64,000 bases of DNA from Candidatus Cloacimonas acidaminovorans str. Evry (GTDB lineage: Bacteria > Cloacimonadota > Cloacimonadia > Cloacimonadales > Cloacimonadaceae), in assembly GCF_000146065.2 (NCBI RefSeq), contig NC_020449.1, positions 1,712,654-1,776,653 on the forward strand, read 5' to 3'. Below are positions 3,197 to 59,950 of the stretch, piece after piece; position 1 is the first letter of the stretch, and the number at the start of each line of letters is the position of its first letter. The notes beneath the pieces were generated by a model. That model was given only the letters and a program-made list of their open reading frames with translations, made no database searches and was not told where the DNA came from. Position numbers and translations under genes: made by a program.

Positions 3197-3528
3197 TTCT
3201 TCTTTATCTGAAAAACCAATCTATAGTTAGTTTCAACATATTTATTCTGAATGAATTAGCTTTCTTTCCTGTCTATCTTTTCACGAAATAATGCTAATTT
3301 TGACTAATACCAGAATATATCACATAATTACTTTTGACATAGTAGATTATCTAACAACCCTCAAACACTTTCCTAACACTGCAGTAGTCCCCTTAGACGA
3401 TCTTTACATATAGGTCACGATGTTTATAAATACGCTTGCAGGTTTGCCATAAAAAAGAAGAGATAAGTTTTGTTATCCTTCTTGCAAAATAGAAATTAAT
3501 AACAGTAGTTCAGGAACATTAAATAAAT
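3197..3528. other. Convergent intergenic stretch, 332 bp
   Basis: This lies between the convergent ends of queE and thiS. No ORF with a ribosome-binding site is seen. The only recognisable element is a terminator-like hairpin at 3450-3483, listed separately. The remainder is AT-rich with no repeat I can link to the other families. Confidence 0.7.
3450..3483 (-). terminator. Probable rho-independent terminator of the bamA-thiS run
   Basis: Read on the minus strand, AAGAAGGATAA pairs with TTATCTCTTCTT (one bulge) around a 6-nt loop. A run of T follows, given by the A tract at 3451-3456. It lies 45-80 nt past the thiS stop, as expected for the end of this operon. Confidence 0.5.
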
Positions 3529-12244: not shown

Positions 12245-12423
12245 TATTCCTCCACTCAAGAGTTAATAGCCAGAATTGTAAATAGCCCTTTTTAGTAAAG
12301 ACATTTTTTTGTTTTATCCCGCTAATTCCTTTAGAGCATTTTTAAAAACGCATATTTGGGGTTTAGCTTTATATCTGTTTTTATTACAAGCCATTATCCC
12401 CTTTTTTCTGTTCTTCCCTAATT

Positions 12424-12492
12424 GCATTGCTTACCCATTGCTTACCCATTACGGATGGGATTAGCAATGAGTCCGTATTGCGTAACTAATGC
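12424..12492. repeat. Palindromic array of 11-bp units (3 + 3-bp centre + 3), locus 1
   Basis: Left units gcattgcttac, ccattgcttac and ccattacggat are followed by the centre ggg (12457-12459). The right units are attagcaatga, gtccgtattgc and gtaactaatgc. The left units are degenerate reverse complements of the right ones. A 34-bp segment at 12436-12469 is identical to 59061-59094. Confidence 0.85.
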
Positions 12493-12570
12493 TTCTTGGC
12501 ATAAGGAGTTATATCCCTTCCCTTTTGCTAATTCTTTTATCATCCCTGTGAAAGCAGAAATCCCTATACT

Positions 12571-36515: not shown

Positions 36516-37442
36516 ATGTGCAAAAAGTATATCTGGCTTGCCTTCGTGGCACTTTTAATATTTGGTTGCGGAACCGAAGAAAGCCGATTGGAAAAAGCCA
36601 ATAGAAAACTTGGTTCTAAACAGAATCCGATTAAAATGTATTTTGTTCCTTCTCTGGAAGCAGGAAAAGTTGTTTCCAGCGGAGAAGCAATAGCCAATTA
36701 TCTGGAAAAAGAAACCAGATTACATTTTAAAGTAGCTGTTCCTACAAGTTATGCCGCCGTAATTGAAGCACTGGGAACTTATCAGGCGGATGTTGCCTGG
36801 CTGCCAACTTATGCTTATATTTTAGCTAAACAAAAATATGATGCGCAAGTGCGATTGATGACTGTCCGCAATGGCTTAACCAAATACAGAGGACAGTTTG
36901 TAGCCCGTAGTGATAGTAAAATTAATTCTCTGCAGGATATTGAAGGAAAAATAATTGCCTACACGGATGCCGCTTCCACTTCCGGTTATATTTATCCTTC
37001 CGCTATCTTAAAACAAAGGGGTATTACACCCAAAGATTATTTCTTTGCAGGAGGTCATCCCCAAGCTATTTTAGCGGTTTATAGTGGAAGAGCGGATGTG
37101 GGTTGCAGTTATTGGTCGCCACCTGATGCCAAGGGAAAACCAATGGATGCCAGAGAAAAACTCCTGGAGACCTATCCCGATGTGTTTGAGAAAGTTAAAA
37201 TAGTTGATTATACTGATTGGATTCCCAATGATACGGTAACTTTTCGGAAAGACCTTCCTCCCGAAATGGAAGGTATTATCGTGCAGGCATTATATCGCTA
37301 TGCCCAAAGTGCGGAAGGGAAAAAGGTTCTGAAAGCTCTTTATGATATTGATGGCTTGGAATATGCCTCCGATAAGGATTACGAAATTGTGCGCACAACC
37401 CTTAAGACAATGAATATGGACCCAGCCGAATTGCTTAAATGA
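36516..37442 (+). CDS. phnD: Phosphonate/phosphite-type ABC transporter substrate-binding lipoprotein
   Basis: A PhnD-like solute-binding protein with a lipobox ending at Cys (LLIFGC, residue 18 from this start). The two-lobe fold has AVPTSYAAVIEALG, DVAWLPTYAY, YTDAASTSGYIYP and GRADVGCSYWSP. The ATG at 36516 has GAGGAG 9 nt upstream; an in-frame ATG at 36510 is only 3 nt from it. The stop overlaps phnC. The ligand could be phosphonate, phosphite or phosphate. Confidence 0.9.
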   Translation: MCKKYIWLAFVALLIFGCGTEESRLEKANRKLGSKQNPIKMYFVPSLEAGKVVSSGEAIANYLEKETRLHFKVAVPTSYAAVIEALGTYQADVAWLPTYAYILAKQKYDAQVRLMTVRNGLTKYRGQFVARSDSKINSLQDIEGKIIAYTDAASTSGYIYPSAILKQRGITPKDYFFAGGHPQAILAVYSGRADVGCSYWSPPDAKGKPMDAREKLLETYPDVFEKVKIVDYTDWIPNDTVTFRKDLPPEMEGIIVQALYRYAQSAEGKKVLKALYDIDGLEYASDKDYEIVRTTLKTMNMDPAELLK

Positions 37443-38191
37443 ATCCAAACAGTAATTTGCTTCAAGTTAATAACTTAAGCAAAAGTTATGACGGTAAAAA
37501 ATGGGCATTGGAAGATTTATCTCTAAAAGTGCAAGAAGGGGATTTTGTAATTTTATTAGGACTTTCCGGCAGCGGAAAATCTACTTTGCTGCGTTGTATC
37601 AATCGTCTTATTGAACCAACCAGGGGACAAATCCTTTTTCGCAATGAAGATATTCTGCAACTTAAAGGAATAGAGCTGAAACATTATCGCCGCCAAATCG
37701 GAATGGTTTTTCAGCAATTCAACCTAGTGAAAAACCTCACCGTCCTCACCAATGTTTTAACCGGACGCTTAGGATATCATTCCTCTCTTTCACCTTTCAG
37801 CAAAGAGGATTATGAACTGGCAACACAAAATCTGGAAAAAGTGGGCTTACAGGATTTTGCCGATAAACAGGTAAAATTCCTTTCCGGAGGACAACAACAA
37901 AGAGTTGGTATTGCACGTGCCTTAATGCAAAAACCTTCTTTAATTTTAGCCGACGAACCGGTAGCCAGTTTAGACCCTGCCACAGCCGATTCCATTATGC
38001 AATACCTGGGTGAAATAAACCGGGAAGGAATTTCTATTATCTGTTCATTACACTTTTTAACTCTGGCACGCAGGTATGGAAATAAGGTTTTAGCTCTGAA
38101 AGAAGGACATAAGGTCTTTGAAGGAATTCCTAACCAAATTGATAATATCCGCTTTAAAGAAATTTACGGTCAGGATGCTGAAGAAATCTAA
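37439..38191 (+). CDS. phnC: Phosphonate-type ABC transporter ATP-binding protein
   Basis: A 250-residue ABC ATPase. The Walker A GLSGSGKST lies near 42, the signature is LSGGQQQRVGIARAL, and Walker B is LILADEPVAS. It overlaps phnD (ATGA). The usual third gene, a PhnE permease, is not downstream; a 698-bp gene-free stretch follows instead. Confidence 0.93.
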   Translation: MNPNSNLLQVNNLSKSYDGKKWALEDLSLKVQEGDFVILLGLSGSGKSTLLRCINRLIEPTRGQILFRNEDILQLKGIELKHYRRQIGMVFQQFNLVKNLTVLTNVLTGRLGYHSSLSPFSKEDYELATQNLEKVGLQDFADKQVKFLSGGQQQRVGIARALMQKPSLILADEPVASLDPATADSIMQYLGEINREGISIICSLHFLTLARRYGNKVLALKEGHKVFEGIPNQIDNIRFKEIYGQDAEEI

Positions 38192-38301
38192 AGATGTTTT
38201 TAATTCATAATTTCGGTGCTAACTCCCGATATAAACAATAACAATTCCCGCTTGTTACAAAGATTACGAGCTCTTTCTTTTTGCTCGCTAAAATGCTTAA
38301 T

Positions 38302-38381
38302 GACCAAGTAACAATTCCGTAACAACTCCGTAACGAAATTACGGAAGTGTTACGGAAGTGTTACGGAGTCGTTACTTAATC
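38302..38381. repeat. Palindromic array of 11-bp units (3 + gaa + 4), locus 2
   Basis: Left units gaccaagtaac, aattccgtaac and aactccgtaac are followed by the centre gaa (38335-38337). The right units are attacggaagt, gttacggaagt, gttacggagtc and gttacttaatc. The total is exactly 80 bp, the same layout and length as the locus at 57517-57596. Confidence 0.9.
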
Positions 38382-38511
38382 TTGTGGGTTTCAATAAATT
38401 ACGCATTTGAACTTAAGTTCGGGAAAAGATGAACAATCTGGACTGTTAACCTTATATGATACAACTAATTAGCTTTTTTTTTATCACGAAAATAAAGAAA
38501 TATTTTTTACC

Positions 38512-57236: not shown

Positions 57237-57632
57237 AATCCAATCCTCATTTTTTGTTATTTTCTAAAATACTCTCTGTTTCTTTATAATTTTCGCTTGC
57301 TTTCTGTCAAGGAGTTTGTGGTCAGCAGCGAATCTTATATATTTTTTATATTTAAAATGCATAAATATTTCCCGTCTTTTTCCCTTTTACCTGTCCCATA
57401 TTTATAGCGTTTAGCATTACAAATTATGCTATGCTGCAATAAATTAGCCTGCAATTGGTTAGACCTTCACCTTTTTTGCTGCTGGGCATTATTTCCTGCC
57501 AAGTTGAATCTTTTATGCTCCTTTAAACTTTCTTTAACGATTCCTTAGCGAAGTTAAGGCAGTGTTAAAGAATCGTTAAAGAAATGACCAAGCAACAGGT
57601 AGTTATAATATAAGATTATTGATGGGTTAAAC
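57237..57632. other. Gene-free stretch of 396 bp
   Basis: Between a GNAT gene and the PPDK-like gene (both minus). Its main content is an 11-bp palindromic array at 57517-57596. No ORF or convincing promoter was recognised. Confidence 0.7.
57517..57596. repeat. Palindromic array of 11-bp units (3 + gaa + 4), locus 3
   Basis: Left units gctcctttaaa, ctttctttaac and gattccttagc are followed by the centre gaa (57550-57552). The right units are gttaaggcagt, gttaaagaatc, gttaaagaaat and gaccaagcaac. It has the same 80-bp layout, the same centre and the same terminal gaccaag as locus 2, but different unit sequences. Confidence 0.9.
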
Positions 57633-58902: not shown

Positions 58903-59048
58903 GTTATGAAGTTGGAAGATATCTTATTTCCTTTTTGCGAATAAGTTCCGTAGTAAATTGGAAGTTGTTAATGCATTTATTCTCAATTGCATTTTGGGGG
59001 TTAAGTAAAGTCCATTTTTTTCAGGGCATCTCAGCTTTTTCCCAGCTT

Positions 59049-59128
59049 GAATTGCTGAAGCATTGCTTACCCATTACGGATGGGATTAGCAATGGGTAAG
59101 CAATGAGTAAGCAATGCTATTAAGGAAG
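59049..59128. repeat. Palindromic array of 11-bp units (3 + ggg + 4), locus 4
   Basis: Left units gaattgctgaa, gcattgcttac and ccattacggat are followed by the centre ggg (59082-59084). The right units are attagcaatgg, gtaagcaatga, gtaagcaatgc and tattaaggaag. The 15-bp arms at 59061-59075 and 59091-59105 are perfectly complementary. It shares 34 identical bases with locus 1. Confidence 0.9.
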
Positions 59129-59336
59129 AAAATGGAATTATATTTAGTTAATAGGAGTTAGGAAAATTTAGGGGGAAGAAGAAAATATTATATCTGTAAC
59201 TCCATATTTTATATAGTTTTATTATTCTTAAACTCTATAAAATAAGATAACTCCTATAGTGATGGCAGTTAGATAACGACGGGTTTTAACCCCGACGCAT
59301 GTTCTATTTTAACTCACAATTTTCACCGGGGAGAAA

Positions 59337-59517
59337 GTTTTGACTCACAATTTTCACTTGCCCTCCAGGTACACACATCCCACAAACATCTTCATTTGCA
59401 ACCGAGTTATAACTTGTTTACGAATTAAAAAATTGTGAGTTAAAACAAGAACCCTGCACACTGTCAACCGAACTACATTTGGTCTCCTCATTTCAAAATT
59501 GTGAGTTAAAACAAGAA
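59337..59517. repeat. 181-bp direct repeat, copy A, containing a 110-bp inverted-end element
   Basis: It is nearly identical to 59771-59950 (one substitution and one 1-bp indel). The first 110 bp (59337-59446) is bounded by gttttgactcacaatttt and its inverse ending gagttaaaac. The remaining part repeats the right end (attgtgagttaaaacaagaa) 66 bp further on. Confidence 0.85.
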
Positions 59518-59645
59518 CCTGCACACTTACAACCGAGCTACAGCATTCCGTCAAATTCCACGGTCACGGAAAAAATATATATTCAGCCGCTCCAGAAATG
59601 TGGGGTAGGAATTGTTCAGAATTGGTGACTTCGGGGAATACTTTC

Positions 59646-59756
59646 GTTTTAACTCTAAACCGAGCTTCAGCTGTGAAAGTAGAAGGCAACAAACAAAATT
59701 TCCTGTTACCTCAGAATATAGTTGCAAACATAAAAGGGTCGGTTTAGAGTCAAAAC
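59646..59756. repeat. 111-bp element with inverted ends gttttaactctaaaccga
   Basis: The right end tcggtttagagtcaaaac is the inverse with one mismatch. It keeps the outer gtttt(a/g)actc of the neighbouring 110-bp elements and the same length, but the inner end and interior differ. It looks like a second type of the same element class. Confidence 0.8.
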
Positions 59757-59770
59757 TCCCCCCTCTACTT

Positions 59771-59950
59771 GTTTTGACTCACAATTTTCACTTGCCCTCC
59801 AGGTACACACATCCCACAAACATCTTCATTTGCAACCAAGTTATAACTTGTTTACGAATTAAAAAATTGTGAGTTAAAACAAGAACCTGCACACTGTCAA
59901 CCGAACTACATTTGGTCTCCTCATTTCAAAATTGTGAGTTAAAACAAGAA
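59771..59950. repeat. 180-bp direct repeat, copy B, containing a 110-bp inverted-end element
   Basis: Copy of 59337-59517, offset by 434 bp. The inverted-end part is 59771-59880, extended outward by cttg/caag. High identity suggests a recent duplication or repeated insertion. Confidence 0.85.

Follow-up and report, generated by a model that had tools for sequence, protein, structure and literature searches.

Arrays of inverted 11-bp units in Candidatus Cloacimonas acidaminovorans as candidate miniature mobile elements

Four intergenic loci in a 64,000 nucleotide stretch of the genome of Candidatus Cloacimonas acidaminovorans str. Evry (hereafter the window) carry quasi-palindromic arrays of 11-bp units that belong to families repeated along the chromosome. 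The arrays keep one layout at high copy number, end sharply, lie between genes and show no detectable target duplication; the asymmetry of their arms is fixed, their units are lineage-specific and their presence differs between species. With a probability of roughly 0.6, each locus is a copy of a miniature mobile element, non-autonomous and REPIN/MITE-like in kind, that spreads in intergenic DNA as a unit of fixed length.

Detection of the arrays and their copy number

The original prediction placed arrays at 12424-12492, 38302-38381, 57517-57596 and 59049-59128, each with three inverted 11-mers, a 3-bp centre and a further three or four 11-mers, and the sequences agreed with this description at all four loci. 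For every axis in the window, the palindromic and the period-11 matches lying within 37 bp were added up to a score. The four loci took ranks 1-4, at axes 38336 (score 67), 59083 (58), 57545.5 (55) and 12458 (51), while the best score in 20 dinucleotide shuffles of the window was 46; an equal score was thus not obtained in shuffled sequence.

The genome, a single contig of 2,246,820 bases that starts at dnaA (position 310), was searched with patterns and profiles, which resolved three families: A (the locus at 38302), B (12424 and 59049) and C (57517). Their positions and units are given in Table 1. Further instances were not few; the match lists of the profile searches, tallied by hand, gave about 44 loci of family A, about 44 of family B and 2 of family C, or some 90 copies, those of A and B being found in both orientations. 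The pattern GTTAC-N6-GTTAC-N6-GTTAC had 66 matches genome-wide versus 17 for a reversed control, and the B unit pair had 73 matches versus none for its control. The second C copy, at genome 1365926-1366081, is 83% identical to that of the window. One layout, maintained despite changes in the unit sequence, recurs genome-wide and far above chance. The unit sequences were said to differ between loci, which is true of the three families but not of four unrelated sets, since two of the loci are both B. The proposed total length of 80 bp was too short, as the elements proper measure about 124 bp in A and about 93 bp in B. A core YAAY, read on one strand, may be common to the A, B and C units, as a comparison by eye suggests. 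Family A was absent over about 324 kb across the origin (genome 2206511 to 283773), where B is present; by a rough estimate this A-free stretch is not significant.

Table 1. Positions of the array elements and their parts in the window.
Feature	Window position	Strand	Remarks
Family A element, unit GTTACGGAAGT	38278..38401	+	axis 38336; conserved core 38297-38401 = genome 1750950-1751054
Left arm of A, three inverted 11-bp units GTTACGGAGTT, GTTACGGAATT, GTTACTTGGTC (minus-strand reading)	38302..38334	-	
Centre of A, GAA	38335..38337	.	
Right arm of A: ATTACGGAAGT, GTTACGGAAGT, GTTACGGAGTC, GTTACTTAATC	38338..38381	+	
Family B element, unit GTAAGCAATGG	59036..59130	+	axis 59083; profile match genome 1771689-1771783
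Family B element, second window copy	12411..12503	-	axis 12458; profile match genome 1725064-1725156 minus
Family C element, unit GTTAAAGAATC	57461..57605	+	axis 57545.5
Degenerate family A element	3325..3425	-	profile match genome 1715978-1716078 minus, E=1.5e-12

Anatomy and genomic location of the elements

Relative to the axis, conservation ends abruptly at about -58/+65 for family A; for B and for one family of the relative G005 the limits are -46/+46. No significant flanking direct repeat, as expected of a target-site duplication, was found in any of the three (21,296 offset/length tests each). Each arm is built from three to four tandem 11-bp units. In the arms of A the GTTAC parts pair perfectly, and the six intervening bases are often unpaired, identically in every copy, meaning that the elements are quasi-palindromes with an inherited asymmetry.

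The units were found to be position-specific in 29 A elements (for example right 1 GTTACGGAAGT, right 2 GTTACGGAGTC and left 2 GTTACTTGGTT). Units of one locus were no more alike than units shuffled among loci at each position (permutation p=0.86 within the same arm, p=0.50 between opposite arms; 29 A elements), and the impression that units are homogenised locus by locus therefore holds only between families. Position-fixed units without an excess of likeness within loci fit copying of the whole element and not local gene conversion, and on comparison of the sequences the A units are taken to be position-specific copies of a master element. Expansion or repair of the arrays in place, by slippage and template switching between arms and not by copying between loci, would account for the differing unit number of some copies (genome 1248353-1248475 and L007) and for the new unit sequences of each species. 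It is at odds with the position-specific units common to the 29 A loci, with the lack of excess likeness within them, and with the common ends and fixed length of the elements; this explanation was already disfavoured and is given hardly any credence.

Open reading frames of at least 120 aa make up 88% of the sequence, yet they contained none of 60 A and B loci; of 72 arrays from the window and the relatives taken together, a single one fell in such a frame. The intergenic regions that host the elements are wide, and the distance from element to gene is mostly 100-400 bp. Neighbouring genes had no preferred layout, convergence or orientation relative to the elements and no gene family was enriched beside them. 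An autonomous partner with the same ends was not seen; the element ends are inverted and no single-ended B matches occurred.

The predicted folds of the four loci are stronger than those of shuffled sequence (z -5.8, -4.3, -2.9 and -2.4), which would suit transcribed hairpins acting as bidirectional terminators, mRNA stabilisers or small RNAs. Pairing within the B element was 79.4%, below the 81.0% of shuffled elements (500/500 shuffles), a deficit that may partly stem from the ambiguous orientation of near-palindromes, and pairing in A was 67.7% versus 67.3% when shuffled. As compensatory changes were absent in the arms of both families a structured RNA was rejected, and a terminator role was rejected on the account of the missing pattern in orientation or distance to genes. 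Rfam gave no match at gathering score. Transcribed hairpins are accordingly considered very unlikely.

Turnover and distribution in related genomes

Orthologous intergenic regions of sister species usually lacked an element or carried one of another family. Downstream of the gene at window 37439-38191, which precedes the 38302 locus, arrays of different families were found in G002, G005, G006 and, weakly, G003, while there was no array downstream of its orthologues in G001, G004, G007 and G008. Conserved occupancy of orthologous intergenic regions was rejected, with 4 of 10 for occupied regions versus 3 of 12 for unoccupied ones, a difference that is not significant. At L070 the present genome has an A element where G001 has a C-like one, apparently at the same site and with alignable flanks; the two may be orthologous yet of different family, which simple insertion does not predict. 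Alignment of flanks in relatives, as the original prediction had proposed, thus established that the element is often absent or of another family, but the flanks had diverged too far for the junctions to be placed exactly. Comparison of the species yielded no precise empty site, as they are too diverged for one to be demonstrated, and paralogous empty sites were not found either.

Family A matches were confined to the genus, with 7 of its 9 genomes (this one included) and 0 of 32 others containing them, and a genome-wide scan found no exact A core in other species. Relatives of B extend further, reaching other genera; they were found in G005, G006, G008, G015, G017 and G021, and neither G001 nor G002 has them. 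Viral contigs had no exact match to A or B units. Employing a detector of period-11 inverted arrays that is free of unit sequence, 30 arrays per Mb were counted in G001, 55 in G002 and 89 in G005, and none in their shuffled counterparts; rough k-mer clustering resulted in 5-7 clusters for each of these genomes, with several singletons. Other genera of the Cloacimonadaceae had arrays with units of their own at 50 (G011), 62 (G012), 17 (G013), 100 (G015) and 62 (G016) per Mb. In all, the same layout with different units was present in 8 of 9 sampled relatives of the family at 17-100 arrays per Mb, G010 having 0 arrays in 60 kb. No arrays were found in 235 kb from four other families of the order (G027, G029, G031 and G032) or in 100 kb of E. 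coli K-12. Among periods 7-17, tested in the window, G001, G002 and G005, period 11 yielded far more arrays than any other. An excess at period 8 in G002 was rejected as inverted arrays, being explained by direct minisatellites; long ones of this period (GACCTCTC type) lie at L139, L143, L144, L145 and L153.

The elements might instead be sites at which a ParB-, Noc- or ParR-like protein binds in organising the chromosome or in regulation, the 11-bp spacing presenting these sites on one DNA face. The one-turn period and the inverted symmetry would be in keeping with this, as would the dispersal along the chromosome of two families in similar copy number. The elements are sharp-edged and far larger than such sites, though, they turn over between orthologous loci, come in many families per genome and have no consistent gene or orientation pattern, all of which makes this explanation distinctly improbable.

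Additional repeats were observed in the relatives. In G005, at L188, L194 and L214, period-11 arrays (GGCAGGGTCGC type) lie inside longer inverted repeats starting AAGCTCCATCTCTGTTA, the inner stems of which vary between copies and are complementary within each copy. A direct 11-bp minisatellite (GCAAGGATTGA type) immediately precedes an IS200-like transposase gene at about 9140-9380 of L214. A block, CCTGCGATGAGAGATAAGTTCTGGCATCAAGGG, is identical in the intergenic DNA of three species (L067, L147 and L160), upstream of a small gene, and may be a conserved RNA leader.

Known systems and the proposed mechanism

Mobile elements in which short palindromes are moved by a RAYT (REP-associated tyrosine transposase) were the closest candidates for comparison. 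Published accounts describe REPs as single stem-loops of 20-40 bp or doublets, often GTAG/CGTC-tagged and located beside their RAYT (PMC3733652, PMC3116915, PMC6006769). Like the REPIN/REP systems with RAYT (REPtrons), the present elements are short intergenic imperfect palindromes in tens of copies, form several families per genome, cause no target duplication and are lineage-specific in sequence. Unlike them, they have three or four tandem 11-bp units per arm instead of two single inverted REP stem-loops, and no GTAG/CGTC tag was noticed in the aligned element ends.

A strict REPIN identity, with RAYT as the mobilising enzyme, would draw on these traits and on the RAYT-like genes of this genome and its relatives; of the REP_Tyr_transpos matches, two exceeded the curated cut-off and four fell short of it, the RAYT gene of this genome lying at about 633.3-633.9 kb. 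Arrays were also few in both sampled family members that have no Y1_Tnp, namely G010 and G013 (2 in 119 kb in the latter). However, inverted repeats of another kind, and not the present arrays, tightly flank the RAYTs of this genome (G000), G001 and G005 (L205, L208, L210 and L185); in G000 and G001 these repeats are of the GTTTTRACTCTAAACCGA / ACTCACAATTTT type. By a hand count, arrays lie no closer to RAYTs than their density predicts, and G013 has arrays in spite of lacking Y1_Tnp. A role for RAYT as the direct mobiliser is therefore unsupported and was mostly rejected, with a weak co-occurrence remaining, and a strict REPIN identity is regarded as improbable.

Repeats of this other kind also occur in the window, where a cluster of hairpin repeats at 59307-59936 (TTTTAACTCACAATTTT, GTTTTAACTCTAAACCGA) belongs to the same family as those flanking the RAYT of the genome, a REPtron-like REP family. 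The RAYT genes at L208 9263-9972 (G001) and L210 9149-10051 (G005) are closely flanked by inverted repeats of 26-27 bp and their surroundings have a REPtron or TIRtron layout.

Other systems share single traits with the arrays. MITEs of DDE transposons are likewise small, non-coding, intergenic and without genes, with inverted symmetry; in the present elements a target-site duplication was not detected and an autonomous partner with the same ends was not seen. The parC iterons bound by ParR are 11-bp direct repeats on which a protein array assembles at one plasmid locus. They have the same repeat period, whereas the present elements form a dispersed chromosomal family with inverted halves. TIRtrons (TIR-associated tyrosine transposases) comprise repeat families with inverted ends, some of them self-complementary, in genomes with RAYT-like genes (PMC3733652). 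The likeness lies in such inverted-end families; arrays of 11-bp units are not among the TIRtron features described there (PMC3733652), and in the present elements the ends do not enclose a transposase. A search of the freely accessible literature found REP, REPIN and TIRtron elements, but none whose inverted arms are made of 11-bp units in tandem, which, together with the Rfam result, agrees with the original statement that no named element with this layout is known.

The elements are thus best read as a superfamily of miniature mobile elements, non-autonomous and defined by architecture. We infer mobility, protein binding and a mobilising enzyme as follows. The arms of the quasi-palindrome consist of 11-bp units one helical turn apart, a spacing that would place repeated binding sites on the same side of the DNA or an extruded hairpin and that would most simply bring several protein units onto one face of the DNA or of the hairpin. 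Several units per arm would be bound cooperatively by a protein acting in trans, in all probability a transposase or nuclease that co-evolves with the unit sequence, and this protein would mobilise the element without duplication of the target.

That the elements form a class in which period, symmetry and length alone are kept across the bacterial family, the unit sequence being free to change, is a tentative proposal and on the whole rather unlikely. If true, helical phase and repetition would have to be read by an enzyme or DNA-binding protein that is so far undescribed and whose recognition co-evolves with each family.

The findings suggest small spreading elements of a kind that is little known. 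If this is right, dozens of copies per genome are present across a bacterial family, with the 11-bp phase and not the sequence as the conserved feature, and the link between the element families escapes sequence-based repeat searches. Identifying the protein that reads or moves the element would reveal either a transposition system that is new or a recognition system that changes fast. Co-evolution is directly testable here, given the many families in each genome.
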